Virus record (IMG/VR): IMGVR_UViG_3300030117_000657
Span: 1,309 to 33,522 of that record
Source of the DNA: a virus
Length of the DNA stretch: 32,214 bases
Direction: 5' to 3' (one strand)
Both the position numbers and the translations under genes were made by a program. Of this stretch, positions 9,697-31,857 are shown piece by piece; the first letter of the stretch is position 1; each line of letters opens with the position of its first letter. The notes beneath the pieces were generated by a model, which saw only the letters and a list, made by a program, of their open reading frames with translations, was not told the DNA's origin and did no database searches.

Positions 9697-9714
9697 TTTA
9701 CGGAATTCCGTAAA
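9697..9714. promoter_or_regulatory. 18-bp palindrome, copy 1
   Basis: Exact TTTACGGAATTCCGTAAA, flanked C/C. It fills the gap between the stop of the basic HNH-like gene (0 bases) and the GTG of the SNF2 gene (10 bases) and contributes the first A residues of its ribosome-binding site. Confidence 0.85.
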
Positions 9715-9960
9715 CTACTTTTTCTTTTTGTAGTTGCGGCTGCGGTTTTTCTTTGGGCTTTCCAGCCGTGTACCGTCTTTGTTTCTACCGCCCTTGGATA
9801 GTGCCTTCTTGTGACTTACGTCTTTGCCTTTGCGGCTTACACCTTTTTTGTCGTAAGCACGTCTGGCACGTTGCCGTTCCATTCTATCTGGGTGTTCACC
9901 CCGCTCTTTTTGTTTCTTGTATTCTTTCTTGTATGGTCTTGGTGATTTTGTGTATGGCAT
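9715..9960 (-). CDS. Small very basic protein with HNH-like motif
   Basis: 81 residues, about half charged and mostly Lys/Arg. The segment GKDVSHKKALSKGGRNKDGT resembles the HNH pattern D-x-x-H...SxGGxxN found in small phage proteins. The usual second histidine is not evident and the canonical DVDH aspartate is Ser, so nuclease activity is doubtful. A nucleic-acid-binding role is likely from charge. GGGAG precedes the ATG, which directly follows the TAG of the Cas4-like gene. Confidence 0.65.
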   Translation of the reverse strand: MPYTKSPRPYKKEYKKQKERGEHPDRMERQRARRAYDKKGVSRKGKDVSHKKALSKGGRNKDGTRLESPKKNRSRNYKKKK

Positions 9961-10626
9961 CTAGTTGCTCCCGTTGTGAACACACTCCAGAACAACACAG
10001 TGTCGGCGGCATAACCCACTGGGATGGGCGTTCCATACGTTCTTTTCATGTGCAGTCTCCATGCGCTTGTAGTTACTCAACCACTTACCCCAAAGAACTG
10101 GCATCGCATCGCGGTGATAAGTGTCCTTAACAAGGTCTCTGGATATAACAAACAGCAGCCCTGCCATCACCTTTGTGACTTTGGGAAAGTGCTTGAACGT
10201 GGCTAGTGCCATCAACTCTAGTTGACCTTTGTCCGCATACTTGGCTGATTTACTAGTCTTATAGTCTACCACCCTAGCAGTATCACCATCCATGATAACC
10301 AGATCAGCAATGCCGCGCCACCAAACTTTTTTGTCAAAAAAATCACAAGGCTCTAAATTCTCTGTGAGTCCCATCTTTATCTCACATAACTTGTCACCAC
10401 GCTTTGCCTTGAGGCTATCCAACGTATCCTGTGCAAACTTAAAGTTGTTGGGTAGGGGTGTTCCATCTCGCACGTATTCTTCTGCGGCAAGATGAAAAGC
10501 CGTGCCATACGACATGGCATCGGTCTCTGGCTCGGTATAATCCTTAGCGATCTTGAGGTGGTAGAACTTCTTGGGACATTGCTCAAACGCCTTAATCCTA
10601 CTGAATGACCACGGCTTTATGCTCAT
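9961..10626 (-). CDS. Cas4/RecB-like PD-(D/E)XK exonuclease with four-Cys cluster
   Basis: 221 residues from ATG 10626, which overlaps the upstream stop as ATGA; the frame extends seven codons further upstream but without a ribosome-binding site. The fold markers in order are FSRIKAFEQCPKKF (C17), GTAFH (H45), GIADLV (D108), VVDYKTSK (D121, K123) and Q135, the RecB-family nuclease core. The C-terminus has C206, C210 and C215, which with C17 give the four-cysteine arrangement of Cas4/AddB Fe-S nucleases. It probably resects DNA ends for phage recombination or replication. It is coupled to a zinc-ribbon gene and the polymerase upstream. Confidence 0.85.
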   Translation of the reverse strand: MSIKPWSFSRIKAFEQCPKKFYHLKIAKDYTEPETDAMSYGTAFHLAAEEYVRDGTPLPNNFKFAQDTLDSLKAKRGDKLCEIKMGLTENLEPCDFFDKKVWWRGIADLVIMDGDTARVVDYKTSKSAKYADKGQLELMALATFKHFPKVTKVMAGLLFVISRDLVKDTYHRDAMPVLWGKWLSNYKRMETAHEKNVWNAHPSGLCRRHCVVLECVHNGSN

Positions 10627-11009
10627 GGCAAGTAGCCCCCATGCCATAAAAGTTTTTTCTTCATTTTATGAGACTGACCTGTGAGCGAATAACTTTGTAA
10701 CTCTTGAAGAGAGGTTAGTGGTTTCGGTGGTAGTCTCTTAGTAACCCATCTTGCACTGGCAGTAAGTTGTGGCTTGCCTACATCTTGGTTACACAATGCA
10801 AGAGTTAACTCTGCTCTACAACTATTGCAGGTAAACTCCACAATAACTCCGCTTTGTGTATACACTATTCCATGCGACATGGACGTTGTATTCATAGTCA
10901 ACTCAACTGATCCACACTTATTGCAACATGGAAAGCCATCCCTTGTTACTAGGTCGGCATTATGACCTAGTTTCCCATAACCTATCTCCATGTCGTATTC
11001 ATCAATCAT
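10623..11009 (-). CDS. Zinc-ribbon protein, polymerase-coupled
   Basis: 128 residues. Two Cys pairs (CCNKCG near residue 28 and FTCNSC near 60) are spaced as in a zinc ribbon. The C-terminal half is basic (RWVTKRLPPKP; KMKKKLLWHGGYLP). Both ends overlap neighbours by ATGA, so it is translationally coupled between the DNA polymerase and the Cas4-like nuclease. No family recognised; nucleic-acid or protein binding is likely. Confidence 0.7.
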   Translation of the reverse strand: MIDEYDMEIGYGKLGHNADLVTRDGFPCCNKCGSVELTMNTTSMSHGIVYTQSGVIVEFTCNSCRAELTLALCNQDVGKPQLTASARWVTKRLPPKPLTSLQELQSYSLTGQSHKMKKKLLWHGGYLP

Positions 11010-12832
11010 TCACAGTCTCCATATGACTTGCCAGTGCCAGACTCGCAGTTAATAGGCAGACCTTCTGCCCAATCGGGTATCCAACGCATACACTCTTCAA
11101 TGTACGCTTGTGCCTCACCCACTTCTTCGTCACGAACACAGCACACAACAGAGTCATGCACTGTTAATACTACGCGATGTTTCTTAGCTATCTTTAGCAT
11201 TTGTTCACCAATGATGCAACGCGCTATGGCTTGGCATACGTTCTCTATGACCTTACCGCCATAGATACGGTTGCGTCCTCTGCGTGTCTTGTAGTGAAAC
11301 TCTGTGCCTTTTTCTGTGGTATTAAATCCAAGATCGTCATAGCGCAACAGCAGTCCAGACGGTAGGCGTATGGCACTATCGCGTGGACTTACCTCTAGCA
11401 CACTGCCGCAACCCAATGACGCATTGTCACCTCTGGATAGAGCCACGAGGGCTTGTTGTGCGTCACGCCATAACTTGTTTATTTTCCAATTAGCTTCGCG
11501 GTAGATGCTGATGACCCGCCGTGCTTCATCCAGTTCCATATCAAAACCAAAGTTCTTGAGTTGCGCTTGGAACTTGAGTGCGCCCATACCGTAGCCAGCA
11601 CCAAGAATAGTTGTCTTGCCAACAAACCTTTGGTCTTTGGTCACATCAGACTCTTGTACACCATAGATACGTGATGCCATCTTTACATACACATCTTCAC
11701 CAGCCCTGAACGCGTGTGTGAGATCGTCCTGTTCCGCAAGCCATGCCAGCACTCGCGCTTCGATCTGCGCCGAGTCTGCGTCTACCAGCGTATACCCGGT
11801 GGGCGCAATGATACTACGCTTTAACTTCTTACCATTTACACCACGGCTGGGCAGGTTCTGTAGGTTAATCTTGTCATCACCGCCCCACCTACCAGTATGC
11901 GCGGCGTAATATCTGACAGGTACAGGTAACATGCCTCGCTTGGCTATGTCGATAAAGCGTTGTGTCCGTGTCTCTTCCAATGTGGACTTTGTACCCAACC
12001 GTGCCGCTACTAACGCTTGCACCTGTGGATTATCATGGTCTGCCAGTGCTTTGAACTCTTCGTCCGACTTGGCAAAAGCAAAGGTCTGCTTGCCTGTGGC
12101 AGGGCTTTCTTTCATAGGTGGCTCAACGCCAAACGATTTGAGCAGTTCCGCAAACTTGGGATTGCTCATCAAATCTTCTTTGACCACTCCGGCACTCTCC
12201 AACAACTCATCCTTACGGTCACGTGTTTCTGTGAGGTGCTGTTCTAGTAGGCCCAGATCTAAGTCCAACACTGGCTGTACAAACATACGCAGTGTCAGGT
12301 CTATGAGTTTTAGTTCCTGACGAGGAAAGCCCTTCGCCATGATAGTGAATAGTTTATAGGTAAGGTCAACGTCATTGACGCAGTAGTCGCCGTACTGTGC
12401 TAGTTCAATCTCCGTAAAGTCCTCTCGCCTCTTGCCGAGTGCCTGTACGACCTCTGTTCCCTTAACACCAACACCATACTTTTCACTAACCGCCCTGAGA
12501 CTTGCGCTAGTTTCAACCCCATGTATAGCACGGGCAATGCACATAGTATCGGCATACACGCGAGGGCGAATATTATACCGCCAGTTAAGAATAGCACCAT
12601 CAAACATGGTGTTATGACAAAGTAACATAGCATCCGACCAATCGAATGATTGCAGATACTTCTTAATCTGTTCATGTGTACCACTAGCCCACTCCGTCTC
12701 TCCGCTATTTACTTTGACACCTACGCCGATCACCTCAAAACGAGGATCACGGACGTAGGCTTCAGTGGTTAGTTTCGACAGGGAAAACTCCCTGTCGTAA
12801 TAGGTTTCAAAGTCGAGAGTGATTAAGTCCAT
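11006..12832 (-). CDS. polA: DNA polymerase, family A, with 3'-5' exonuclease
   Basis: 608 residues. The proofreading domain is intact: LDFET (D7, E9), CHNTMFDG (72-79) and YCVNDVDLTY (150-159). Polymerase motifs are A, VDADSAQIEARVL (D351), B, KTTILGAGYGMG (K406, Y414), and C, LTVHDSVVC (near 558). There is no 5' nuclease domain, as in T7-type replicative polymerases. ATG 12832 overlaps the upstream stop as TAATG. It should be the phage replicase, working with the AEP primase-helicase and ssDNA-binding protein on the same strand. Confidence 0.95.
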   Translation of the reverse strand: MDLITLDFETYYDREFSLSKLTTEAYVRDPRFEVIGVGVKVNSGETEWASGTHEQIKKYLQSFDWSDAMLLCHNTMFDGAILNWRYNIRPRVYADTMCIARAIHGVETSASLRAVSEKYGVGVKGTEVVQALGKRREDFTEIELAQYGDYCVNDVDLTYKLFTIMAKGFPRQELKLIDLTLRMFVQPVLDLDLGLLEQHLTETRDRKDELLESAGVVKEDLMSNPKFAELLKSFGVEPPMKESPATGKQTFAFAKSDEEFKALADHDNPQVQALVAARLGTKSTLEETRTQRFIDIAKRGMLPVPVRYYAAHTGRWGGDDKINLQNLPSRGVNGKKLKRSIIAPTGYTLVDADSAQIEARVLAWLAEQDDLTHAFRAGEDVYVKMASRIYGVQESDVTKDQRFVGKTTILGAGYGMGALKFQAQLKNFGFDMELDEARRVISIYREANWKINKLWRDAQQALVALSRGDNASLGCGSVLEVSPRDSAIRLPSGLLLRYDDLGFNTTEKGTEFHYKTRRGRNRIYGGKVIENVCQAIARCIIGEQMLKIAKKHRVVLTVHDSVVCCVRDEEVGEAQAYIEECMRWIPDWAEGLPINCESGTGKSYGDCE

Positions 12833-13371
12833 TACTCCCCTGACTCCCCATGCACAAGTTCTGCCGCCAACGCCATGTAACCAGACGCATCGCGGAAGTT
12901 CTCTATACTTGGGTTCTGGTGCGACCTAGCAATCTTCAAGAGTGCCAGCATAACGGGTACTTGTTCGGGTTGTATGTCATAACCTGTATAACCGTACCAG
13001 AGTTGAGCAGTCAGATAAGCGTTAGACCAAAACTCTCCATGCTCCTTTTCTCTGTCGCCAGTCACCAAGTCCTCGGCTTCCCGCAGCACCTTTGCGCGTA
13101 CCCTTTCCTCTACTGGTTTATTCTCTAGCGCATAAGTGTTGTAGGTGTTACCGGAGTTATCCTTGAAGGTCTCTGTGATAACAGGTTTTACGTTGAGGCT
13201 TTGTGCTTCTTGCTCGAAGACCTCCTTTGGTGTGCCTCTTTGTGAACGAATGTTGTACACATACTTCTCACTGCACCCACAAACTTTCGCTACGTTTTTG
13301 ACTTTCGCTAGTGGGTGATCTGCAAGATATTTAGCTACTTTCTCATACTTTGTCTTTTTCTTCTGTGCCAT
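12832..13371 (-). CDS. HTH protein with DUF6378-like C-terminal domain
   Basis: 179 residues from ATG 13371, chosen for GGGAG six to seven bases upstream; the longer frame starts inside the previous gene without a site. The N-terminus is basic with an HTH (LAKVKNVAKVCGCSEKYVYN, about 21-40). The C-terminal part (DREKEHGEFWSNA; LALLKIARSHQNPSIENFRD) matches the DUF6378-type domain common in phages, function unknown. It is immediately upstream of the polymerase and coupled to it. It is the second visible candidate for a sequence-specific regulator. Confidence 0.7.
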   Translation of the reverse strand: MAQKKKTKYEKVAKYLADHPLAKVKNVAKVCGCSEKYVYNIRSQRGTPKEVFEQEAQSLNVKPVITETFKDNSGNTYNTYALENKPVEERVRAKVLREAEDLVTGDREKEHGEFWSNAYLTAQLWYGYTGYDIQPEQVPVMLALLKIARSHQNPSIENFRDASGYMALAAELVHGESGE

Positions 13372-13567
13372 GATGTTCTCCCATAGGCCATAGTGGTAGT
13401 TCCAACTGGTTCGGGTCTTTGTGTTTTTGTATACCCCCACCAGACATTGTTAAGTTGCACGTCCTGCACACGACAGGCTCAGTGCTGTAGTCTACGCTAG
13501 TCCTGCATAAGGGGCATTGGCCCAAGTCAATACGCGCTTGGAATGTACCGTCCCCCTCGTCAATCAT
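13343..13567 (-). CDS. Small zinc-ribbon protein
   Basis: 74 residues with CPLC (18-21) and CRTC (34-37), a compact zinc ribbon, then a Pro/Leu/Trp-rich tail (PNQLELPLWPMG). It overlaps the next gene by 29 bases and the previous one by 8. GGGAG precedes ATG 13567 at a slightly long spacing. No known family recognised. Confidence 0.65.
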   Translation of the reverse strand: MIDEGDGTFQARIDLGQCPLCRTSVDYSTEPVVCRTCNLTMSGGGIQKHKDPNQLELPLWPMGEHHGTEEKDKV

Positions 13568-13814
13568 CTTTTTTCTCCCTCTCTTCTTTTTCTTCTTCTT
13601 TGTCCCGCCTCAACGACATTGATAGTGCCAAGTGAAAGTGTTGCACTGCGGCCTTCAACTGATTCATGTCGAACTCTGCTTGTGCAATCTTACCGTTGAG
13701 GTTCTTAATCTGATTGACAGCGTACTTCTGATCGTCCTTCAACTCGTCGAACAAATACTCGTTGCCATCTACTTGTAACTTGTTATCAGTCATTACCCTA
13801 TCGTCACTCGTCAT
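13560..13814 (-). CDS. DUF6447-like coiled-coil protein
   Basis: 84 residues. The centre (YLFDELKDDQKYAVNQIKNL) followed by heptad-like IAQAEFDMNQLKAAVQ matches small phage proteins of the DUF6447 type; the end is highly charged (DKEEEKEEREKKDD). The start is ATG 13814 (GAGG upstream) or ATG 13793 (AGGG upstream), and I cannot decide between them. It is part of the overlapping cluster ahead of the polymerase. Function unknown. Confidence 0.65.
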   Translation of the reverse strand: MTSDDRVMTDNKLQVDGNEYLFDELKDDQKYAVNQIKNLNGKIAQAEFDMNQLKAAVQHFHLALSMSLRRDKEEEKEEREKKDD

Positions 13815-14520
13815 CTTCTTCTTCCTCCTCGTAGGTGTTGATGATTGGCATACGCCACTTTGGAATAGGTTTCAGTTTCTTGTTCTTCTTAAAATATATC
13901 TGCCCAGTCATGTACCCACGCATACCTGTGCCGTGATGCGGCATGTGCTTTCCGCAATCTGTACAGATAAACTCGGTCTGCCCATATTGTGCAAGCATCA
14001 CTTCGCCAACATCTTTTGGTGGGCTTCCACAGTGTATACACACATCACCATACCATGTGAGCGTACCTGTGAGTGGGTCTTCCTCTATCAAGTTAGTGTT
14101 TGATATGTCATGGGGGGATGCGCGGAAATGATGTTGTTCTTCGATACCGTGATCCAGACCATTGTAGTACATCCACCCACCGTCAATAGCAGACGGTGCT
14201 TCGCGTGTACCTTTTTTCGCACAAGCGGCTGACAACTGACCAAGAACATGCGGCGCAACATGTTTAGTGCCACTGCCTATGAACCTGTTTAGTTTTGGTA
14301 AATCGCATTTACGCAATGCGGCCTGTTTGTGTTCTTTCTCTTTCTCTTTTTCTTTCTTGTGGAGAGCGCGTTGTGTATCGCGTTCTAATTCACGCAATGC
14401 AAAAATCGGTGAGTGGACAGGCAGGTCGTTATTCGGTTTTTTCTTCTTTTTCTTAGTGCCTATGGGCTTACGTTTGCCGTACTCTGCCAAAACTTCTTTA
14501 CGCCGTTTTGATATCGCCAT
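13804..14520 (-). CDS. Basic protein with C-terminal zinc ribbon
   Basis: 238 residues from the third of three tandem ATGs (14520), because GGAG lies six bases before it. The N-terminus is very basic (KRRKEVLAEYGKRKP; TKKKKKK), then a charged helix (KKEKEKEKEHKQ). The C-terminal third has CIHCG and CTDCGKHMPHH, a zinc ribbon with trailing histidines, and the protein ends EEEEEDDE. It is the third zinc-ribbon protein in this cluster. Probably nucleic-acid binding; not recognised further. Confidence 0.65.
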   Translation of the reverse strand: MAISKRRKEVLAEYGKRKPIGTKKKKKKPNNDLPVHSPIFALRELERDTQRALHKKEKEKEKEHKQAALRKCDLPKLNRFIGSGTKHVAPHVLGQLSAACAKKGTREAPSAIDGGWMYYNGLDHGIEEQHHFRASPHDISNTNLIEEDPLTGTLTWYGDVCIHCGSPPKDVGEVMLAQYGQTEFICTDCGKHMPHHGTGMRGYMTGQIYFKKNKKLKPIPKWRMPIINTYEEEEEDDE

Positions 14521-14537
14521 CATCATCTCCGTTGGGT

Positions 14538-14572
14538 GGGGGAGGGAAAATGTTTCAAAAAAACCCTCCCCC
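14538..14572 (-). other. G/C-rich hairpin ahead of a ribosome-binding site
   Basis: Perfect 9-bp inverted repeat GGGGGAGGG 14538-14546 / CCCTCCCCC 14564-14572 with a 17-base A/T loop. On the - strand transcript it ends about 10 bases before the GGAG of the next gene. With no U-tract after it, it is more likely a 5' stabilising or processing hairpin than a strong terminator. Confidence 0.55.
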
Positions 14573-14648
14573 CTGCAAGATCACCACCCCCTTGAAAGGT
14601 AAACTTAGGGCGGCTCTTACTGCAGTGGTTAATTACGGCACTCACTGC

Positions 14649-14951
14649 TTACCGTCCAAACGGTATCGTGTTGAGGCTTTGTGCTACCTCACCGACATTG
14701 GTCTCGTTTATGACTAACGCAAGACCACCCTGTTTGGATATATTATCCAAGGCTAACTGCTGTAGTGGTGTGGGCTTGTTCTTTCCAGCCTTACACTCGA
14801 TGCCAAAGAAAGTTCCCTGATAACATCCTACTATGTCTGGCACACCACTGGTGCCGTAGCCACCTGTTACTGGATAAAAGTAGTACGCACCCAAGTCTTT
14901 GAGGACTGCCACCACCTTCTTCTTTACTTTCGCTTCGGGCGTCATCGCCAT
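14649..14951 (-). CDS. VRR-NUC domain nuclease
   Basis: 100 residues from ATG 14951, chosen because GGAG lies six to seven bases before it; a GTG at 14990 has no site. The protein is essentially one VRR-NUC domain: GTSGVPDIVG (D39), FFGIECKAGKNKP (E52, K54) and TPLQQLAL (Q64). This PD-(D/E)XK subtype cuts branched DNA and is common in phages as a Holliday-junction resolvase-like enzyme. A 9-bp hairpin and one 18-bp palindrome sit in its leader. Confidence 0.9.
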   Translation of the reverse strand: MAMTPEAKVKKKVVAVLKDLGAYYFYPVTGGYGTSGVPDIVGCYQGTFFGIECKAGKNKPTPLQQLALDNISKQGGLALVINETNVGEVAQSLNTIPFGR

Positions 14952-14977
14952 CTGTATCTCCGTGTCGGAACTGGTTT

Positions 14978-15005
14978 CATGGGGCGACACACATGCCGCC
15001 CCATG
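14978..15005 (-). other. Leader hairpin upstream of VRR-NUC gene
   Basis: Perfect 9-bp arms CATGGGGCG 14978-14986 and CGCCCCATG 14997-15005, loop of 10. It lies between an 18-bp palindrome and the ribosome-binding site of the VRR-NUC gene, a layout repeated before the metallopeptidase-VWA gene. Confidence 0.6.
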
Positions 15006-15006
15006 G

Positions 15007-15024
15007 TTTACGGAATTCCGTAAA
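15007..15024. promoter_or_regulatory. 18-bp palindrome, copy 2
   Basis: Exact copy flanked G/G. It sits between the terminator of the upstream gene and the leader hairpin of the VRR-NUC gene, 55 bases before ATG 14951. Confidence 0.85.
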
Positions 15025-15032
15025 GTTTATAA

Positions 15033-15059
15033 GGAGAGGGTGCTAGCTTGTCCCTCTCC
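15033..15059 (-). terminator. Leftward intrinsic terminator-like hairpin
   Basis: GGAGAGGG / CCCTCTCC, 8-bp stem, 11-base loop, followed on the - strand by TTATAAACTTT. It begins 10 bases past the stop of the gene at 15070-15480 and ends just before palindrome copy 2, so the palindrome would begin a new transcript unit. Confidence 0.6.
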
Positions 15060-15069
15060 CCCACCGATC

Positions 15070-15480
15070 TCAACTCGGCGGTATCTCTTCAACATTTTCA
15101 ATGTTTGGGCAAAGTGAACTAACATCTACACCGTCACCAGTGGGGTATCCGTAGTTATCTAGTGACCACTCGTAGCTATCCACCTCACCGTTGTACAACG
15201 CGACACAAAAGTTCATCTCCCATCCTTCCTTGCCACATATCCAGAACGTATACTTGTCTATACGCTGACCCACGTCCTCAATCTCCTGCGTGGGTGGTTT
15301 AGGATCGACCATCATCAACAACGCAATCCGTTCTTGCACCCACTGGGGTAAATCTTCTACAGTAACGTAAGTGCCTTCCAGTTTGTTGTCAACCCTATCT
15401 ATGCCTATACATGACACTTGGACAGTATTTGTATCAGGGTCTATTGAAACACGGTATAACGTGTCATGATCTAACGACAT
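15070..15480 (-). CDS. Hypothetical acidic protein
   Basis: 136 residues from ATG 15480 (GAGGG eight bases upstream); the longer frame overlaps the previous gene by more than 50 bases without a site. It is acidic and beta-rich with no recognisable motif; the middle (WVQERIALLMMVD) is a short amphipathic helix. The start overlaps the upstream stop by 17 bases. Its partner upstream also ends in a similar VSMLAMVENDTYVDDVG pattern, hinting at local relatedness. Confidence 0.65.
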   Translation of the reverse strand: MSLDHDTLYRVSIDPDTNTVQVSCIGIDRVDNKLEGTYVTVEDLPQWVQERIALLMMVDPKPPTQEIEDVGQRIDKYTFWICGKEGWEMNFCVALYNGEVDSYEWSLDNYGYPTGDGVDVSSLCPNIENVEEIPPS

Positions 15481-16339
15481 AGAACAAACCCTCGTCTGCG
15501 CGGTAGCCAACATCGTCAACGTATGTATCGTTTTCGACCATAGCCAACATCGACACCTTACCCATTATATCCTCGGGCAGATCATCAGTGTAACGTGTGA
15601 ATTCGGTTGATACATTTGCGTGCCACGCACCCTTGTGTAGATCATCCACCATGCAGACGTCGAATGTCTGCTTGCCGAACTTCTCAAACACACGGACAAA
15701 GTAACAATGTATGGGCTTGTCCTTGAGTGACTTGTACTCGTCAAGTAAACTGAACATGGTAGTCAACTCAGTGCCAAACGAAGCGTCAATGAATTCATGG
15801 CCTGTATCCACAAGGTTACGCAACTCGGTCAGCATCCTGTTGGACTGACTGCTCTCATGGTCAAACAGGCCACGCATTGCGTTGCGATATTCATTGCCAG
15901 CACCACCCTCACTTTCCTGTGACTTTCTCGCCGCATTTTTGATGTTTGCCCTCGCCATCTCGCGTGGTGAGAAGTTACGGAGAAAACGCTTGGCGTTGCG
16001 TACGGCCGTGGCGATATTGATCGTCATCTTCATGTGATGCTGATCTTGATATGTGGCGTACTTGTCGTTGGTAATAGTGCGAGACGCTACCATATACATA
16101 GCGTCACCCTCAACCTCGGTGCGAAAGTCACCGTACCCGATATACCCCATGGGGTACGGCTCGTCAGGGTAATACACCCATGCCTTCTTACCACTGTTGT
16201 ACACCACGAACTCGACACCACGAAATGCCTCACGCACTTTCTGCATGAGCAATGACAGCCCACTGGTCGGTGGTATGGTGTTGCCGTTGTTCTCTTTGAG
16301 CATCACACTCACGGTCACGTCACTGAAGTTCTTTGCCAT
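15464..16339 (-). CDS. Hypothetical 291-residue protein
   Basis: Starts at ATG 16339 with AAGGG upstream, four bases after the stop of the preceding gene. The N-terminal 100 residues are beta-rich with a GYIGYGDFR motif, then a basic helical part (NAKRFLRNFSPREMARANIKN), then an acidic C-terminus. No family recognised and no signal or membrane segment. It belongs to the 15-21 kb block of uncharacterised early genes linked by palindromes. Confidence 0.7.
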   Translation of the reverse strand: MAKNFSDVTVSVMLKENNGNTIPPTSGLSLLMQKVREAFRGVEFVVYNSGKKAWVYYPDEPYPMGYIGYGDFRTEVEGDAMYMVASRTITNDKYATYQDQHHMKMTINIATAVRNAKRFLRNFSPREMARANIKNAARKSQESEGGAGNEYRNAMRGLFDHESSQSNRMLTELRNLVDTGHEFIDASFGTELTTMFSLLDEYKSLKDKPIHCYFVRVFEKFGKQTFDVCMVDDLHKGAWHANVSTEFTRYTDDLPEDIMGKVSMLAMVENDTYVDDVGYRADEGLFYVVRS

Positions 16340-16343
16340 CTTC

Positions 16344-17315
16344 TTACCCTTTCACTGTCTTGGTGAACCCGCAGGTCTTGTTGATCCACCTGTTGTATTC
16401 TGCCCTAACTACTTTTACGTCATTGTCTGACTGGATGTTACGAATAGTACCATAACTTGACACAAAGTCAACAGCCATGGCTAGACGTAGCGGATGGTTT
16501 TGTTTGGTGATTACCTGTCGCATGACCTCCGGTGTAATCGGGTTCCAGTACCCTCCACCTGTTGCCTCACGCACTTGTCGCTTCATCTCACTCCGATAAC
16601 CCCAGTCATCGACTTGGAGCATAGGAGCCATGGCACTGATCCACGCAAGGTAACTTGCCATGGCGTCCTTGTACTTGGCCTTCTGCTTCTTGTTGACCAA
16701 GGTACGAGGCGGCTTGGGTGCATCACACTCGTCCCCAACAAGCGTAAACTTGTTACCGTGATCTTCACGAAGGAACGTCAGCGCTGATCCGTCATCGGTT
16801 GCCCGCATCCATGAGGTAAAACCATTGGGAGTTGCATTAGCTTCATACACACAACGTGGCACATACATACACTTGGGCAAGTAGTGCTTGCCACTGTTGG
16901 CGAAGACGTACTGCTTACCGTATTTGATGTCGAGCATCATGCCGCGTGGTAGCATCCTGTCGAGGAACGAGTAGTGGCTCATGTGCGCACCGTTGCCAAT
17001 GCCGTTGCGTATGGTCACAGTCTCGGTGCCATCCTTGTGTCGTCTCCACACCACAGGCGATAGCGCGGCGATCTCTGCTTTTGTTAAGCCCACCCTTGAG
17101 TGGTGAGAATAGTAATGATACACGTCATCGTAGTAGCCCCCGTTCATGAGCGCGTAGCAGTTTGCTGATATCTTCTTTACACGCTCATGGTCACGCCTAC
17201 GGTCGCCGACCGGACGTACGTCCTTGCCTTTGTTCTTGCCACGCATAGGCTTGGTTCTGTTGTAAATGTTCTCCACCTCTGCGAATGATGTTGGTTTGAT
17301 ATATGGCGTTGCCAT
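16344..17315 (-). CDS. Hypothetical 323-residue protein
   Basis: Start ATG 17315 with AAAGG upstream, 15 bases after palindrome copy 3. The N-terminus is basic (RGKNKGKDVRPVGDRRRDHER), followed by a Tyr/His-rich part (YYDDVYHYYSHHSR) and a GNGAHMSHYSFLDRMLPRG segment. A Cys-containing stretch (LPKCMYVPRCVYEAN) and a helical C-terminus follow. I do not recognise a family. It is conserved in length with no sign of decay and lies directly downstream of the metallopeptidase-VWA gene. Confidence 0.7.
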   Translation of the reverse strand: MATPYIKPTSFAEVENIYNRTKPMRGKNKGKDVRPVGDRRRDHERVKKISANCYALMNGGYYDDVYHYYSHHSRVGLTKAEIAALSPVVWRRHKDGTETVTIRNGIGNGAHMSHYSFLDRMLPRGMMLDIKYGKQYVFANSGKHYLPKCMYVPRCVYEANATPNGFTSWMRATDDGSALTFLREDHGNKFTLVGDECDAPKPPRTLVNKKQKAKYKDAMASYLAWISAMAPMLQVDDWGYRSEMKRQVREATGGGYWNPITPEVMRQVITKQNHPLRLAMAVDFVSSYGTIRNIQSDNDVKVVRAEYNRWINKTCGFTKTVKG

Positions 17316-17330
17316 TGTTCTCTACCTTTC

Positions 17331-17348
17331 TTTACGGAATTCCGTAAA
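17331..17348. promoter_or_regulatory. 18-bp palindrome, copy 3
   Basis: Exact copy flanked C/C, one base after the stop of the VWA gene and 15 bases before the next ATG. The gap leaves room only for a ribosome-binding site. Confidence 0.85.
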
Positions 17349-17349
17349 C

Positions 17350-18555
17350 TTACATGTTGCTTGATTTGACATGAACTGTGATACCACAGTCGGGCTTGGC
17401 ACTGTCGTTGTCGATGACAACCCACAGCACAGGACATGACCACTGACCCCACGACCCACCAAGATAGCCATCGGTAATCACGATAACAGCTTGTGGTGTG
17501 ATGTGCTTGTCGGTCATGTATTCGGGGACACACTCGACAGTCGTGCCGCCACCACCCTTGGGTCGCGTTGACTGAACCATGGTGTCCAGATCTTTGGACT
17601 CGTACCTCTCGTCCTGACACACTTGGGTGTCCCAGTACAACAGACGCACAGCCTCGGGATGCACAGTGTCAGCGATTGACTTGATCTCGGTCAGTGCCAC
17701 CGATACCTCACGATCACCGATAGATGCTGACATGTCAGTGGCAATCACCAACTCGTCAACACGCTCGGAGATACCGCTTGGCAGATACACACCACCAGAC
17801 ATGAAACGCCTGTTGGGTCTGCGCCACGTTGAGTAGTCACTGCCTGTGCAAGTGGTTGTGATGAAGTCACGCATGACCTCGCGCCAATCGACTTGCGGCT
17901 GGAGCAACTCTTGCAAGTCACGATCACCACCTGTACCCATCTTGCCAGCGATCAACGCACCCTGACGTATTGCCTCGTCAATGTCGCGCTCCAACTCGCG
18001 TTGCTCATCGGCAGATAGTTCTTGCGCACCCTCAAAGTCGTGATCGTCCAATGGCTGACCGCCACCGTCACCGTCGCCACCATCGCCACCTTCTTGTGGT
18101 GGGTCTTGCTTGAGCATGTTGAACACTTGAGCCGTATCCATGCCACGATACTTCTCGTCATAACAACCTACTGTGAGTGGGCCTGTCATGGTTGCGAAGC
18201 CGTCCTTGTTGTCATCGGAAATCTTGAGGTTGATGACATAGTCCATCGCCATGTTGGCAAGCCGTGGGTTCTCGTCCCACAGATGCTTCCAAGTCTTGAG
18301 ATGAAGATACAGCTTGTGGTAGCACTCATGCAGTATGAGATAGCGAAACTCTGGATCGTTGCACTGATCTGCGAACGCACGACCATACACCTCGTCACGT
18401 CCGTTGGTGTAGGCTGTTGGTGTTGTCTCGCAGATACGCTTCTCACCGATCATCAATACGCCAGCCAGTGCGACATACTTGGGATTGCCCATGATGTCGA
18501 TGACACACTTGTTGAGCCGTTGCTCGGTAGTCAGTTGTTTTCCAATAGCAAGCAT
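17350..18555 (-). CDS. Metallopeptidase-like + VWA-like protein (DUF2201 type)
   Basis: 401 residues. The N-terminal half carries HECYH (76-80), the HExxH zinc motif, with NMAMDYVINL (101-110) as the expected following helix. A Gly/Asp linker (155-170) leads to a C-terminal VWA-like domain: VIATDMSASIGD (MIDAS DxSxS, D274-S278) and GGGGTTVECVPEY (MIDAS threonine). This matches the DUF2201 putative metallopeptidase/VWA family, normally paired with a MoxR AAA+ ATPase, which is present one gene upstream. MoxR/VWA pairs act as remodelling chaperones or metal inserters; the phage substrate is unknown. AAGGA precedes ATG 18555. Its leader holds a 9-bp hairpin and palindrome copy 4. Confidence 0.85.
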   Translation of the reverse strand: MLAIGKQLTTEQRLNKCVIDIMGNPKYVALAGVLMIGEKRICETTPTAYTNGRDEVYGRAFADQCNDPEFRYLILHECYHKLYLHLKTWKHLWDENPRLANMAMDYVINLKISDDNKDGFATMTGPLTVGCYDEKYRGMDTAQVFNMLKQDPPQEGGDGGDGDGGGQPLDDHDFEGAQELSADEQRELERDIDEAIRQGALIAGKMGTGGDRDLQELLQPQVDWREVMRDFITTTCTGSDYSTWRRPNRRFMSGGVYLPSGISERVDELVIATDMSASIGDREVSVALTEIKSIADTVHPEAVRLLYWDTQVCQDERYESKDLDTMVQSTRPKGGGGTTVECVPEYMTDKHITPQAVIVITDGYLGGSWGQWSCPVLWVVIDNDSAKPDCGITVHVKSSNM

Positions 18556-18565
18556 TGGTCTGTCC

Positions 18566-18590
18566 TTTCTGGGTGAGGCACACGCCCCAC
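18566..18590 (-). other. Leader hairpin upstream of metallopeptidase-VWA gene
   Basis: On the transcript, GGGTGGGGC pairs with GCCTCACCC around a GTGT loop (9 bp, one G-U). It lies between palindrome copy 4 and the AAGGA site. Coordinates are approximate to a few bases. Confidence 0.5.
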
Positions 18591-18597
18591 CCTGTTG

Positions 18598-18615
18598 TTT
18601 ACGGAATTCCGTAAA
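18598..18615. promoter_or_regulatory. 18-bp palindrome, copy 4
   Basis: Exact copy flanked G/G, two bases after the stop of the small gene at 18618-18818 and 42 bases before the VWA start. Confidence 0.85.
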
Positions 18616-18617
18616 GA

Positions 18618-18818
18618 TTACTTCTTGTTACGTCTTTTTCGTTTTGGTTCTACATACAGAGTGAAATTCCAAATGGGTTTGCCGTTACCTTGCTCCCCCA
18701 CTACTGAGCGCCACTCCCACTTGAAGTGTTCGTTCAAGTGTTCTTCCAATGCAGATTCCATCGCGTTAATAACTTGAGTGGAACCCCCATACATGATGTC
18801 TTCTTTACATTCTTTCAT
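18618..18818 (-). CDS. Small hypothetical protein between MoxR and VWA genes
   Basis: 66 residues with an excellent ribosome-binding site (GGAGG six bases before ATG 18818), 10 bases after the MoxR stop. The N-terminal half is acidic helical (INAMESALEEHLNEHF), the C-terminal part beta-like, ending with a basic tail (EPKRKRRNKK). No family recognised. The position inside the MoxR/VWA pair suggests a partner or regulator of that complex. Confidence 0.65.
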   Translation of the reverse strand: MKECKEDIMYGGSTQVINAMESALEEHLNEHFKWEWRSVVGEQGNGKPIWNFTLYVEPKRKRRNKK

Positions 18819-18828
18819 TGTAACCTCC

Positions 18829-19923
18829 CTACTTCTTGTCAGCCGCGAACATGTAGTTGTTGTCCATGGCCCACTGGGTGAACTTCTTGTTTGTCATAAC
18901 GAGTGACTGCTTGGCGTACTTGGGTGCGCGTACGCCATTGGCGAACATACCCTGTGCCTCTTTGTCGAGACGGACTAGGTAGTCCATCCATGAGTCAAGC
19001 CAGTCTCTCTCCAAAGATGCTAGGGTGCGATACACCACCATACACACACCGGCAGCACTGCTCGGCACCTTGGCGTTCTTTGGGTCTTGCTTGATCGACT
19101 CGGCACTTGGCAGTTGGTCAGCCAGCTTGACAAACGCCATCAAGTCCATCGCACCACGCTCACCGATAGTACCCATGAGTGCGGCTGTCACGGTCTGATC
19201 GTCTAGTCCATCTCGCGCCTTGAGTATGTCACTCGCCGCTTCCAACGAGCGGGGTGTAACAAACGCGGCTCTCTGCTGCTTGGGATGGAAGATGTACGGA
19301 TTGTCGTCTGGGTCTTTGATGTCCTCAAACGAGTAGAATAGTTGCGGGTTGTCTTTACACCAGCCCAATAGCGTGTGGTCGATTTCATTGTTGATACCCC
19401 ATTCAATCCATTCCATGTTGGTAGGCTTGCGTGTAGTCACGACCGTCATGCGGTTGCGAGCATGTGGTGGTAACAAGTCACCGACACCCTCGGAACCTTT
19501 GTTGGTCGTGGCGAAGATAATGCTGTCAGGGTGTAGCGTGTAGCTACCGATTTTACGCTCCAGTATAAGACGTAACAGTGCGTTCTTGACAGCAGGATTG
19601 GCCTTGCCGAACTCGTCAACCATGATGATGACAGGCGTGTGATGATGCACACCAAGCTCTTCATTGGTGAGATACGTCACATAGCCTGTGCCATCATCCA
19701 TCTTGGCGAGGTTGGGTATGGTGATGTCACCCAAGTCCTTGGTCGTACAATCGAAGTAGCACGGTGTGTGATTGGGCAGTGCCTTGGCAAGCGTGGTAAG
19801 AAGTGTTGACTTGCCTGTACCCATGTCACCCTGCACAAGCACGGTGCGCATTTTACCTATTGCTAGAACCACTGCCTCAACTTGGTCAAGTCCCAGTGCG
19901 TACATTGTTGTTGCTGTATTCAT
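18829..19923 (-). CDS. MoxR-type AAA+ ATPase
   Basis: 364 residues from ATG 19923, whose GGAG site overlaps a less likely ATG four codons upstream. Walker A is GDMGTGKST (32-40), Walker B IIMVDEFGKA (99-108), sensor 1 ATTNKG (N141), with arginine-finger candidates in HARNRM (R156, R158). This is the MoxR/CbbQ-like AAA+ layout, with a C-terminal helical lid. Such ATPases form hexamers that deliver energy to a VWA-protein partner; the VWA gene is one small gene downstream. It probably remodels a protein or metal centre during infection. It is preceded by palindrome copy 5. Confidence 0.88.
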   Translation of the reverse strand: MNTATTMYALGLDQVEAVVLAIGKMRTVLVQGDMGTGKSTLLTTLAKALPNHTPCYFDCTTKDLGDITIPNLAKMDDGTGYVTYLTNEELGVHHHTPVIIMVDEFGKANPAVKNALLRLILERKIGSYTLHPDSIIFATTNKGSEGVGDLLPPHARNRMTVVTTRKPTNMEWIEWGINNEIDHTLLGWCKDNPQLFYSFEDIKDPDDNPYIFHPKQQRAAFVTPRSLEAASDILKARDGLDDQTVTAALMGTIGERGAMDLMAFVKLADQLPSAESIKQDPKNAKVPSSAAGVCMVVYRTLASLERDWLDSWMDYLVRLDKEAQGMFANGVRAPKYAKQSLVMTNKKFTQWAMDNNYMFAADKK

Positions 19924-19949
19924 GATAGTCTCCATTCTTTCAAGAGTTG

Positions 19950-19967
19950 TTTACGGAATTCCGTAAA
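19950..19967. promoter_or_regulatory. 18-bp palindrome, copy 5
   Basis: Exact copy flanked G/G, one base after the stop of the DUF3150-like gene and 26 bases before ATG 19923 of the MoxR gene. Confidence 0.85.
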
Positions 19968-19968
19968 G

Positions 19969-20889
19969 TTACATGCCGATTGATGGTAGTGATTTGATTA
20001 CCTCGTCCACGGTGCGCTTAGTCTCTGACCGTAGATGGGCATCCTCGCGCAGTGCATCAGCATTGACACCACGAAAAGCATCTTCAAGTTTCATTTGTGC
20101 CGCGTTCATCTGGCTGTCGCCTGTGACGTTACACACGTTAAGAAGTTCTACCATGTCAAACACGTTACCAACGAGACTGTCACGAAAGACTTTCTTCTTT
20201 TCATGATCTGAGTAGTCGAGCCGCTCGGACATATGCGAGAGTGCGTCATGTAAACGTGTCCACACGTCATTCATTGCGTTGTTTAACTGTGCCGAATAGT
20301 AGGACTGATAGTGATCCTTGACTTGCTCGGTTGCCTCATTGCCGATGTCGATACGAAAGTCACCAGCATCAGGCAGTGGGATATACGACAAGCGAAACCC
20401 GAACTTGTTGCGTAGACTGTCAACGGATGGATACTCGTTGCGATCAAACAAGTCACCTAGCTTTGCGGATGCTTGAGTGATCTCCCATTCGTAACTGTAC
20501 AGAAACAAGTCAACAAGCCTGTCATACTCGTTCTGGATGTCAGTCATTGCCTGATGATACTTGAAGTATTGAGCCGTTGGCAAAAGACGCAAGCCTGTGT
20601 CAGACCATGGCATTGTCATGGCGTAGTGTATGTTGCGGCTGTTGGCTGTGAACTTCTGTACCGCCATGAGTTCTTGGCAGTCAGCGAGCAGCTTCTTGTG
20701 TACAGACGCTACACCGGACGCGGCATGGTTGTCTGTGGTAACATCTTCTGATGCTTTCTTGTCTTTCTTGCGTCCTGTCCATGTTGAGATGGACAACTCA
20801 CAAAGCATGGCAGATGATCCGATGCTTGGTGTGGATGGTGCGGGGTTTACGGAATTCCGTAAAGTTTCGGTTGAGATAATCTGTGTCAT
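19969..20889 (-). CDS. DUF3150-like protein
   Basis: 306 residues, start ATG 20889 with AGGAG six to seven bases upstream. The segment LCELSISTWTGRKKDKKASE (about 29-48) and later MPWSDTGLRLLPTAQYFKY resemble DUF3150 proteins, which in phages and mobile elements occur near MoxR AAA+ and VWA genes; I rate this moderately. The rest is helical. Oddly, palindrome copy 6 lies inside the coding sequence and encodes residues 9-15 (TLRNSVN). The alternative downstream ATG (residue 28) has no ribosome-binding site, so the site really seems to be translated. Confidence 0.7.
   Translation of the reverse strand: MTQIISTETLRNSVNPAPSTPSIGSSAMLCELSISTWTGRKKDKKASEDVTTDNHAASGVASVHKKLLADCQELMAVQKFTANSRNIHYAMTMPWSDTGLRLLPTAQYFKYHQAMTDIQNEYDRLVDLFLYSYEWEITQASAKLGDLFDRNEYPSVDSLRNKFGFRLSYIPLPDAGDFRIDIGNEATEQVKDHYQSYYSAQLNNAMNDVWTRLHDALSHMSERLDYSDHEKKKVFRDSLVGNVFDMVELLNVCNVTGDSQMNAAQMKLEDAFRGVNADALREDAHLRSETKRTVDEVIKSLPSIGM
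20846..20863. promoter_or_regulatory. 18-bp palindrome, copy 6 (inside a gene)
   Basis: Exact copy flanked G/G, 26 bases into the DUF3150-like coding sequence. It is the only copy inside a coding sequence. Confidence 0.8.
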
Positions 20890-20912
20890 GTCGTTCTCCT
20901 GTGTGACAAGTT

Positions 20913-21101
20913 TTAGTGCATTGTGTGGACGTAACCGAGTTCGGTCAGTTCTTTGATAGTCTCCGCGATAGCCACTGCAATATCTTCTGCATATGACTGT
21001 GACGGCTGTGTCCAGCCGAGGTCTTCCAAATGCTTGAGGTGGTCAAGCGCCATCTCTACACGGCGCAGGGTGGGGTTCTCAATGTGTGCGTAGTTCTTCA
21101 T
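20913..21101 (-). CDS. Small hypothetical protein next to the origin-like region
   Basis: 62 residues. Helical, with a basic/acidic mix (RRVEMALDHLKHLEDLG; EDIAVAIAETIKELTELG), looking like two or three helices. There are no motifs. GAGAA before ATG 21101 is a weak site, 15 bases after palindrome copy 7. It is the first - strand gene after the 750-bp non-coding region. Confidence 0.6.
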   Translation of the reverse strand: MKNYAHIENPTLRRVEMALDHLKHLEDLGWTQPSQSYAEDIAVAIAETIKELTELGYVHTMH

Positions 21102-21116
21102 CGGTCATTCTCTTTC

Positions 21117-21134
21117 TTTACGGAATTCCGTAAA
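21117..21134. promoter_or_regulatory. 18-bp palindrome, copy 7
   Basis: Exact copy flanked C/C, 15 bases before ATG 21101. On the - strand it shares a 27-base block with copy 9 (palindrome plus GAAAGAGAA). Confidence 0.85.
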
Positions 21135-21150
21135 CTGTGGTTGTAATGTA

Positions 21151-21172
21151 CCAAAATTTAGTCGAATTTTGG
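21151..21172. repeat. Inverted repeat CCAAAATT-6-AATTTTGG
   Basis: Perfect 8-bp arms with a TAGTCG spacer, 16 bases right of palindrome copy 7. Its A/T-rich, operator-like geometry suggests a dimer-binding site or small hairpin. Confidence 0.5.
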
Positions 21173-21274
21173 CGATGATGAATACTACCACAGGTAGCGT
21201 TTACTGTCAATACATGGTGAACAGTTATTATAAATATATAAATAGGGTAAAACTTGGTGAACGGTGTGTTGTTG

Positions 21275-21620
21275 TGTAATGTACTGTAATGTTCTTATGT
21301 GGTGGTGTGTAACGCATTGGAAAGACAGCAATGTTCTTTTGTTCGTTTTTTGAGGTTTTTGGACACCTGCCTCGACGCCCTCTCAGACTTTACGGAATTC
21401 CGTAAACTACCCATGTACCCTCCAACAAACCTTAATAATATTTGAAAAAACGAACATTACACTACTACTACAAGATTAGATAAGATTAGATAAGTTCTGA
21501 TAGGCAAACCTCGGCATTGCCTGCTATGCATCACCACGCCCCACCACCAAAACATAATGTTCTAACAGTGGCAAAAAAAAACGAACATTACGGAACATTA
21601 GAAAGAACATTAGAACATTG
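21275..21620. repeat. GAACATT iteron cluster
   Basis: Copies (either strand) at 21277-21284 (variant TAATGTAC), 21287-21294, 21330-21336, 21452-21459, 21555-21562, 21583-21590, 21593-21600, 21605-21612 and 21613-21620. The last four are 8-12 bases apart, about one helix turn, as expected for initiator-bound iterons. AAAAAACGAAC precedes two direct copies and occurs inverted at 21341-21351. Confidence 0.65.
21389..21406. promoter_or_regulatory. 18-bp palindrome, copy 8
   Basis: Exact copy flanked C/C, in the middle of the iteron cluster and 287 bases from the nearest gene start, so it is not simply a gene-leader element. Confidence 0.85.
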
Positions 21621-21646
21621 GCTCAACGCGGCTCTAAGTAACTGGT
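21620..21646. repeat. Direct repeat, copy 1 (27-base core)
   Basis: Core GGCTCAACGC(G)GCTCTAAGTA plus ACTGGT; one base differs from the other two copies. It abuts the last iteron and is 10 bases from palindrome copy 9. Confidence 0.75.
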
Positions 21647-21655
21647 TTCTCTTTC

Positions 21656-21673
21656 TTTACGGAATTCCGTAAA
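21656..21673. promoter_or_regulatory. 18-bp palindrome, copy 9
   Basis: Exact copy flanked C/C, between direct repeat copies 1 and 2, with no gene start nearby. Confidence 0.85.
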
Positions 21674-21724
21674 CTTGTTATGACACACAACGCTTCCAGC
21701 CAATTGCATATGTTTTTGTATTTG

Positions 21725-21759
21725 ATGCGAGTGGCTCAACGCAGCTCTAAGTAACTGGT
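21725..21759. repeat. Direct repeat, copy 2 (35 bases)
   Basis: Identical over 35 bases (from ATGCGAGTGGCTC to ACTGGT) to copy 3, starting 51 bases before it. Confidence 0.8.
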
Positions 21760-21775
21760 CTCTTAACGTGTCACT

Positions 21776-21810
21776 ATGCGAGTGGCTCAACGCAGCTCTA
21801 AGTAACTGGT
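21776..21810. repeat. Direct repeat, copy 3 (35 bases)
   Basis: Second perfect 35-base copy. It ends 12 bases before the terminator of the small gene at 21856-22056. Confidence 0.8.
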
Positions 21811-21822
21811 TTCAAAAGGCAC

Positions 21823-21850
21823 AAAAAAAGGCAGGACCGAAGCCCTGCCT
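21823..21850 (-). terminator. Strong leftward intrinsic terminator (UUCG loop)
   Basis: On the - strand AGGCAGGGC-TTCG-GTCCTGCCT (9-bp stem, one G-U, UUCG tetraloop) is followed by seven T. It starts five bases after the stop of the 66-residue gene and shields the origin-like region from leftward transcription. Confidence 0.9.
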
Positions 21851-21855
21851 GATCT

Positions 21856-22056
21856 TTATTTGAACAGTCGATATTCCCGAGGGAAGTCTTGCATCCGTTC
21901 ATTCGCTTGGCGTTTAGCAATTAGTGCCATTGCCAAGTGATGCCTTGCATAACCGCGATGATGGCCAGTATCTTCTGATTTTTCCAGCCATTCAGTAAGT
22001 TGTTCTTCTGTGTAATTAGTACACAGTGAATATTCAGTGTCGTTTAACTTAGTCAT
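21856..22056 (-). CDS. Small hypothetical protein
   Basis: 66 residues, AGGAG eight bases before ATG 22056, overlapping the preceding stop by 8 bases. Helical and charged, with TEEQLTEWLEKSEDTGHHRG in the middle. No family recognised. It ends just before a strong terminator, so it closes a short transcript with the membrane protein gene. Confidence 0.65.
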   Translation of the reverse strand: MTKLNDTEYSLCTNYTEEQLTEWLEKSEDTGHHRGYARHHLAMALIAKRQANERMQDFPREYRLFK

Positions 22057-22294
22057 CTAACGCGCTCCTGTATCCAAAAAATGCAACAAGACCGCCTAAG
22101 ATAATCCATCCAGCCTGCAAAGCGATGCCCCATATAGGCCATGGATCAGTAGATATTTCGCCGATAGACATACCGATTAAGACCATCAGTATGCCTAGAA
22201 ATGTTATGACAACACCAGCAATACGCCGAAACTTTTTAGCGCGTTGCTGTTGCTGTTTTGCTTTACGCCACCGTTCTACAGTTTGATCTTTCAT
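22049..22294 (-). CDS. Small membrane protein, two transmembrane segments
   Basis: 81 residues with a basic cytoplasmic N-terminus (KAKQQQQRAKKFRR), hydrophobic segments at about 25-42 and 54-74, and a short loop with STDPWPIWG. AGAGGA precedes ATG 22294. The topology is compatible with a small holin-like or host-envelope protein. However, its early-region, origin-side location argues against a lysis gene; host takeover or anchoring of replication are alternatives. No family recognised. Confidence 0.65.
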   Translation of the reverse strand: MKDQTVERWRKAKQQQQRAKKFRRIAGVVITFLGILMVLIGMSIGEISTDPWPIWGIALQAGWIILGGLVAFFGYRSALDD

Positions 22295-22316
22295 AACGTA
22301 TCCTCTTATGATGAAA

Positions 22317-22338
22317 GGGCAGGACCGAAGCCCTGCCC
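22317..22338 (-). terminator. Leftward hairpin, second copy of the UUCG terminator stem
   Basis: GGGCAGGGC-TTCG-GTCCTGCCC on the - strand, sharing a 20-base core with the terminator at 21829-21850, but followed only by TTT. It lies 9 bases after the stop of the 202-residue gene, so it is probably a weak or partial terminator. Confidence 0.65.
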
Positions 22339-22347
22339 TAAGTTGTT

Positions 22348-22956
22348 TTAGTGAGTCACCGACTTGGTCGGTGACTTAGTCAGCTTGGCAATCTCTTTTA
22401 GAAGCTCGACCACCTTTGCCTGATTTTTCAAGTGGTGAGGTTTTGCCTTATCGGCATTTGCCATTATCTGGCCTAGTGCCTTGTTGGCGTGGATGTTAAC
22501 ACGTTCCTGCAAGGGCTTGACGCCACCGGTCTTCTTCTTAGTCTTGCCAGAATTTATGGCATCGACCTCGGCGGCTTTGGACTTGCGAGTGCTGATCCAT
22601 GTACCGACCTTTTGTCCTGCCGATGTCCTGTCAGCCTGCATAGCAAGTTGTACCGGTTCAGAGCGCTTTTTCTTAAGCGCCATAAACTCTTTATTGCTGG
22701 GCTTGAACGCTATCCTTTCGGCCCGAGTAAGCAAGGGCTTTCTAAACTTATCCTTTGCGTTATTGGCCACGACCTGACGGAACGTTTCCCATGCCTCGGG
22801 CGATAACGTACCGCCAGACTTGGGACTTGTGAACGTCATTTCGGTAAATTCGCGGGTTTTGATTTCCGCCATTACCAAACCGTCAGCACCCTCGGCCTTG
22901 TTAACAGTACGCACAAATGCAACATCCGGTGTTGCCACGTTAGAACGATTAGTCAT
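22348..22956 (-). CDS. Hypothetical basic protein, first leftward gene
   Basis: 202 residues from ATG 22956 with AAGGA upstream, 19 bases after palindrome copy 10. The N-terminus is beta-like (MAEIKTREFTEMTFTS), followed by a long basic region (KPLLTRAERIAFKPSNKE; KSKAAEV...GKTKKKTGG) that is probably nucleic-acid binding. No family recognised. The final codons and stop lie in a 10-bp perfect hairpin (22354-22363 / 22367-22376), an odd overlap of coding sequence and RNA structure. As the first gene of the early strand it is a candidate early regulator. Confidence 0.65.
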   Translation of the reverse strand: MTNRSNVATPDVAFVRTVNKAEGADGLVMAEIKTREFTEMTFTSPKSGGTLSPEAWETFRQVVANNAKDKFRKPLLTRAERIAFKPSNKEFMALKKKRSEPVQLAMQADRTSAGQKVGTWISTRKSKAAEVDAINSGKTKKKTGGVKPLQERVNIHANKALGQIMANADKAKPHHLKNQAKVVELLKEIAKLTKSPTKSVTH

Positions 22957-22975
22957 GATGACTAGATCCTTTCTG

Positions 22976-22993
22976 TTTACGGAATTCCGTAAA
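22976..22993. promoter_or_regulatory. 18-bp palindrome, copy 10
   Basis: Exact copy, uniquely flanked G/C so that it extends to 20 palindromic bases, 19 bases before ATG 22956. Confidence 0.85.
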
Positions 22994-23097
22994 CTCTATG
23001 AGCTGGCAGTATGCCTTGCTCTGATGGTTATAATATGGCACATCGGCGCGGTAATTGAAATGGATAGACTGTAAACGTGTTATTATTTATCTAATAC

Positions 23098-23115
23098 TTT
23101 ACGGAATTACGTAAA
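23098..23115. promoter_or_regulatory. 18-bp palindrome, degenerate copy 11
   Basis: TTTACGGAATTACGTAAA: one base differs, breaking one base pair of the palindrome and the central GAATTC. Flanked C/C. It is the rightmost copy, in the divergent control region. Confidence 0.75.
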
Positions 23116-31790: not shown

Positions 31791-31857
31791 ATTATAGCAT
31801 ACAGTATCCCTGACAGTTACATTGAGTAGCTGACACTTGCCACGACAGGAGATAGAC

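Follow-up and report, generated by a model that had tools for sequence, protein, structure and literature searches.

Stoperators of cluster A mycobacteriophages (L5, Bxb1 and TipsytheTRex) are 13-bp asymmetric sites that are bound by a monomer of the immunity repressor, oriented with transcription, and distributed genome-wide in these temperate phages; the repressor comprises an N-terminal helix-turn-helix (HTH) and a Stoperator domain (PMC9283540, PMC6550527). Here, we describe a set of repeated 18-bp palindromes, TTTACGGAATTCCGTAAA, in the early region of virus record IMGVR_UViG_3300030117_000657. The window, i.e. the whole stretch of 32,214 nt that was analyzed, corresponds to positions 1309–33522 of this 33,522-bp viral contig, which is a fragment. 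Judged from the collected contigs, the palindrome system is common to more than 100 phages, mostly marine and uncultured. Its site type apparently follows a candidate reader protein, g202, the product of the gene that opens the early region (22348–22956, minus strand), a predicted all-helical protein of 202 amino acids with an isoelectric point of 10.3. We consider it probable that the palindromes are duplex DNA sites for a g202 homodimer, forming an autoregulated and lineage-specific roadblock to early transcription in which protein and site switch as a pair.

Ten exact copies of the 18-mer and one copy with a single mismatch (23098–23115) are located within positions 9697–23115, in agreement with the initial annotation of this DNA, and nothing resembling the 18-mer at up to three mismatches was found in the window outside these sites. 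The count that was expected from dinucleotide shuffles is 0.02, and 11 sites were reached in none of 100 shuffles. Seven copies are located shortly before minus-strand gene starts in the open reading frame list, and four of the copies (9697, 17331, 18598, and 19950) begin 0–2 nt past the stop of the preceding gene, also as first described. The copy at 9697–9714 directly follows the basic81 stop (0 nt) and precedes the start of the SNF2 helicase gene (9686) by 10 nt; the same junction is marked in relatives L001 (with one base changed), L002, L004, L006, and L007. The copy at 15007–15024 is 16 nt from the start (14990) of a VRR-NUC-like 113-aa gene, the copy at 17331–17348 lies between the stop of a VWA gene and the start of g323 (15 nt, start at 17315), the copy at 18598–18615 precedes a VWA (DUF2201) gene (42 nt, 18555), and the copy at 19950–19967 lies between the DUF3150 stop and the start of the MoxR-like ATPase gene (14 nt, 19935). 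The copy at 21117–21134 is found in the leader before g62 (15 nt, 21101), and the copy at 22976–22993 is 19 nt from the start of the g202 gene (22956). The copies at 21389–21406 and 21656–21673 are isolated sites in a ∼700-bp non-coding leader (21134–21829) that is partly conserved in L009 and L006, along with repeated AATGTTC-like motifs, and the one-mismatch copy lies where the regulator gene and a TerS-like gene diverge. The remaining copy (20846–20863) is not intergenic but is located in frame inside the coding sequence of the DUF3150-like gene (19969–20889, minus strand), near its 5′ end, and encodes TLRNSVN. By our count a copy is present at about 8 of the ∼20 gene junctions in the interval 9.7–23.2 kb, so the description of nearly every junction as marked was too strong, and in relatives it is a fixed subset that is marked.

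The relatives were gathered by their MoxR and PolA proteins, and most of the contigs are fragments. In contigs of ∼60–68 kb, the early half is divergent from the late half; the former encodes a DUF927 primase, T7-type SSB, SNF2 helicase, PD-(D/E)XK nuclease, PolA, and a MoxR/VWA/DUF3150 set, and the latter opens with a small-terminase-like gene, followed by TerL and portal genes. The exact 18-mer is present in ten other contigs, at the same gene junctions, and L006 retains a 16-bp core, TTACGGAATTCCGTAA, with altered ends. At the junction before MoxR, nearly all relatives have an inverted repeat, the sequence of which differs from phage to phage. In a scan, each of 96 contigs had a single dominant inverted-repeat type (two of these contigs, with types ACCTGC and CTAGCC, were later dropped as doubtful), and the type is nearly uniform within a phage. 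The most frequent types are TTAGTG (61 contigs), TTAGGG (14), TTAGTC (5), and TTACGG (4), followed by TTATAC, GTAGTG, and TTACGC (2 each) and single occurrences. The spacer is 3 or 4 bases, the full length is constant at 17–18 bp while arm and spacer vary, and each phage has ∼8–13 copies. The 18-mer of the initial annotation is thus one version of an element for which the ∼96 related contigs carry versions of their own, and its GAATTC core, to which significance had been attached, is incidental, as most relatives have other sequence there. The palindrome of L094 and L110, AGGGAATTCCCT, also contains GAATTC, which places the EcoRI core in a second type.

Rather than being scattered without regard to gene order, an outcome that the initial annotation had also envisaged, the sites occupy positions that are strongly conserved across the relatives. 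The DUF3150 start is marked in 78 of 86 cases, the MoxR start in 80 of 92, the g323 start in 47 of 56, and the SNF2 helicase start in 27 of 38, and no sites were found at the PolA, PD-(D/E)XK nuclease, SSB, and primase junctions of the relatives. In three whole relatives that were mapped in detail, exact sites are confined to the early and divergent regions, with none in the late half. The MoxR protein has no relative in the genome collection that was searched, and isolated phages gave no match above 60% identity for the two proteins that were tried; judged by these proteins, the phages lack close relatives among isolated phages and sequenced genomes.

The site in the 5′ coding region of DUF3150 is kept in most relatives that have a site at this gene, and both the encoded peptide and the reading frame vary with the site type: ETLRNSVN in TTACGG phages, NVSAALT or VSDTLT in TTAGTG phages, DVSPRTNN in TTAGTC phages, VLGNSLT in TTAGGG phages, and NGSDSLQ in GTAGTG phages. 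Since the peptide is rewritten for each type, selection acts on the nucleotide sequence and not on the protein. In the TTAGTG-type contig G003 (L022/L175), a ∼290-bp insert (49418–49704) directly follows the resident TTAGTG site; it is flanked by two TTACGG sites and contains g62 along with a new DUF3150 start. The insert is missing from L021, a relative of this contig with 97% identity in the remaining sequence.

Among 29 gene families, g202 had the highest partial association with the difference in site type (0.72) when MoxR distance was allowed for. In close pairs of phages, g202 identity is 70% when the site types are the same and 22% when they differ, whereas most core genes show no such drop. 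Related phages enter this test in pairs, which overstates the independence of the data, so the tree and fresh contigs weigh more than the correlation value. The MoxR tree requires at least 16 changes of site type, often between phages that are ∼90% identical elsewhere, and the TTAGGG type reappears, together with its g202 motif IGSxxxD(L/I), at several unconnected places in the tree. In aligned orthologs, the type-specific motif spans residues ∼107–134, within helix 100–135. It reads QQQIGA(R/K)xxD(F/Y) in TTAGTG phages, IGSxxxD(L/I)(R/K)N in TTAGGG phages (with both 3- and 4-base spacers), (I/V)GSRxxK(I/V) in TTAGTC phages, QQTGAKLVKV in TTATAC phages, and ADR...K in TTACGG phages. A new scan with the motif yielded 49 previously unused contigs, told apart from the old ones by contig name; 48 of them have the predicted site type (IGA...DF/DL with TTAGTG, IGS...KDL with TTAGGG), and the 49th has no site. 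The scan pattern fixed QQ and G[AS], not the pairing of A or S with the site type. A site is located near the start of 44 of 47 regulator genes. AlphaFold2 models of g202 and of L061 are all-helical, with mean predicted local distance difference test values of 86.8 and 89.4, respectively, and place the motif in a long helix. The two HTH proteins that had been suggested as readers do not behave in this way: the MerR-like protein encoded at 7414–7704 (association −0.24) has an HTH that hardly differs between TTACGG and TTAGTG phages, and the recognition helix of the protein encoded at 12832–13371 is likewise shared by the two types.

The palindromes could be read as DNA or, in early transcripts, as RNA hairpins with a stem of 7–8 bp and a loop of 3–4 nt, in which case g202 would act in nut/boxB-like antitermination or at a translational operator. 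In lambda, boxB folds as an RNA hairpin whose loop is conserved and is present in one or two copies, and lambdoid N/boxB pairs are type-specific, as are the pairs described here. Like N, g202 comes first among the early genes, the sites are found just past early promoters, within leaders that are transcribed and close to start codons, the type-specific motif of g202 forms a basic helix, and some of the loops are strand-biased. However, the substitutions in the stems do not have the signature of RNA wobble. Sites with a single stem mispair on the transcribed strand comprise 6 G·U, 4 A·C, and 33 others, and in a wider but less strict count, which takes in two-mismatch matches and hence some chance ones, there are 50 G·U and 62 A·C. 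Spacers of TTAGTG phages are free and unoriented (CCG/CGG 12:11, TCA/TGA 5:5), unlike the boxB loop, so the stem would have to be recognized, but the A-form major groove is poorly accessible. In addition, TTACGG sites are perfectly palindromic through AATT, and the copies are far more numerous than those of boxB. The total length of 17–18 bp is held even with arms as short as 6 bp, which places the half-sites about one helical turn apart. No Rfam-type RNA family match was found at the palindromes; the only match, to the Mu-gpT-DE RNA, is located at 31808–31860 on the plus strand, just 3′ of the major capsid gene. The absence of a G·U preference and the one-turn spacing of half-sites together favor a protein dimer on duplex DNA; the hairpin reading is unlikely, although it is the strongest of the alternatives, and the folded RNA processing site that was among the original proposals is disfavored by the same mispair counts.

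The location of the sites relative to promoters bears on what a DNA-bound protein might do. A strong sigma-70-like promoter, TTGACA-17-TAGTAT with TG before the −10 element (21182–21210, minus strand), was identified by consensus match only and has counterparts in relatives; its inferred start is followed, ∼40 nt downstream, by the site at 21117–21134. An intrinsic-terminator-like hairpin (21829–21850, minus strand) sets apart the regulator operon (g202, TM81, and g66b), which it would end. For 135 promoter-like matches (at least 10 of 12 positions) in and around site regions, the nearest site is at +25 to +199 of the inferred start in 72% of cases, mostly at +25 to +150, compared with ∼14% for random positions. 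In only ∼3% of the matches does the closest site fall at −50 to +24, which does not fit a classical operator overlapping the promoter core (about −60 to +20). No flanking promoter motif or conserved hexamers at a fixed distance from the sites were found, and the palindrome was rejected as a promoter element on this ground. The positions of the sites resemble roadblock or stoperator use, and among the options of the initial annotation, an operator for a phage repressor or activator is the best supported class.

A transcription activator or a processive elongation factor that is loaded at DNA sites downstream of promoters would fit the same co-variation and position data, and a lytic phage may have a greater need for early activation (no match to the tyrosine or serine recombinase families was detected in nine records). 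Nevertheless, near-consensus promoters should not need activation, and placement at +25 to +150 is better suited to roadblocks, which makes this explanation improbable and somewhat less attractive than the hairpin. We regard as very improbable a DNA-organizing, partition, or packaging mark (parS- or KOPS-like) that is read by g202. It would account for multiple palindromes in one region, and parS is of similar size, but the sites are placed where specific genes begin, next to promoters and to the gene for the regulator, and are missing from the late half in the three mapped relatives; no ParB-family CTPase was present among general Pfam matches, with no dedicated search made and parABS not searched. 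Least credible of all are hairpin promoters for an N4-type virion RNA polymerase, because in spite of stem and loop sizes like those of N4 early promoters and the presence of giant virion proteins, near-consensus sigma-70 promoters are located upstream, one site lies inside a coding sequence, and no RNA polymerase family was matched (a weak negative, as PF00940 gave 0 of 9 records and 0 controls). The earlier suggestion of a phage-polymerase mark likewise gained no support, as no T7-like RNA polymerase was found, although a diverged N4-type enzyme would be missed.

The preferred explanation, a dimeric DNA-binding roadblock protein, is based on computed features, namely the conserved positions, one dominant type per phage, the co-variation of g202, the location downstream of promoters, and the missing RNA-wobble signature. 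From these we infer binding, dimerization, roadblock or repression, and a role in superinfection. A homodimer of g202, or of its relatives, would bind each palindrome as double-stranded DNA, and the bound protein would mainly block RNA polymerase in transcribed early operons, downstream of promoters and once more where selected genes begin. Its own gene would be repressed as well, and the outcome would be a dampening or shut-off of early transcription. The specificity of protein and site would be particular to each phage lineage, with both partners changing together. Such joint changes would be expected if the regulator also turned off the early genes of other phages of its type in a co-infected cell; these phages would then form an immunity-like group.

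Several observations weigh against this explanation. The second highest association with site type is that of g149 (15070–15519, minus strand; 0.67, with 83% versus 59% identity in close pairs), which is unexplained. The g202 model contains no recognizable DNA-binding fold, and comparisons of two g202-family models with solved structures and viral model structures (Foldseek, VIA-align) gave no significant match, although an HTH is not thereby excluded; the best Z scores were 5.4 and 6.1, with nothing beyond common helical arrangements. Some spacers are strand-biased relative to their reverse complements (CACG 14:2, AATC 12:2, ACA 11:1, and also AAAT), and a symmetric DNA site needs no such bias. 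The TTAGTG-type contig G003 retains two foreign TTACGG sites, so sites of a foreign type are tolerated. Finally, several site types are known from just one or two phages.

A broader proposal would make g202 the founder of a new family of non-HTH, sequence-specific DNA-binding regulators that form transcription roadblocks at about ten dispersed palindromes in lytic phages, with protein swaps and site conversion that diversify the specificity, mutually exclusive immunity-like groups among abundant uncultured phages, and a readable helix-to-half-site code; we advance it tentatively and rate it a little short of an even chance. If it is true, stoperator-like control would reach beyond temperate actinobacteriophages to a large phage group without a detected integrase, through a protein family without a detected relative in Pfam or solved structures, and the natural series of protein/site pairs could yield a recognition code. 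The system may set which phages interfere with one another. The idea that co-infecting phages of the same type silence each other is a testable claim on regulator diversification, for which orthologous phages with a swapped type, ∼90% identical elsewhere, are ready-made experiments.

We found no description of the palindrome element in the open literature that was searched. A distant cultured relative, Rhizobium phage RHph_TM3_14A (MN988472; L213), contains a comparable 18-bp inverted repeat, GTTACC-N6-GGTAAC, in at least 12 exact copies, about one every kilobase, many of them at gene starts. Unlike the palindromes described here, these repeats cover the whole record, early and late, between and inside many genes. 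The first early gene of this phage was rejected as a g202 homolog, as there is no homology; its repeats are a parallel case, lacking such a homolog, that can be approached by experiment. Pseudomonas phage KPP25, also considered as a cultured relative, showed no comparable recurring inverted repeat over the part of its sequence that was read. In plasmid RK2, about a dozen scattered palindromes of the TTTA...TAAA type (O_B), some of them far from promoters, are read by one regulator, KorB, and the arrangement of sites is similar to that in our phages. KorB is a ParB homolog, whereas no Pfam family came up for g202 at the E-value used, and searches with its orthologs and against PHROG gave chance-level matches only. 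The closest resemblance is to the stoperators of cluster A phages. In both systems, many copies of a short site are located at promoters and in short intergenic gaps, mostly outside promoter cores, the site sequence varies between related phages along with a phage-coded regulator, and a site upstream of the regulator gene suggests autoregulation. The sites described here differ in being symmetric palindromes of 17–18 bp that are confined to the early half, and the candidate g202 differs in having no recognizable HTH, in phages for which no integrase was detected (nine records). By the features that were tested, the palindrome system appears to work like cluster A stoperators but is not a member of that group.

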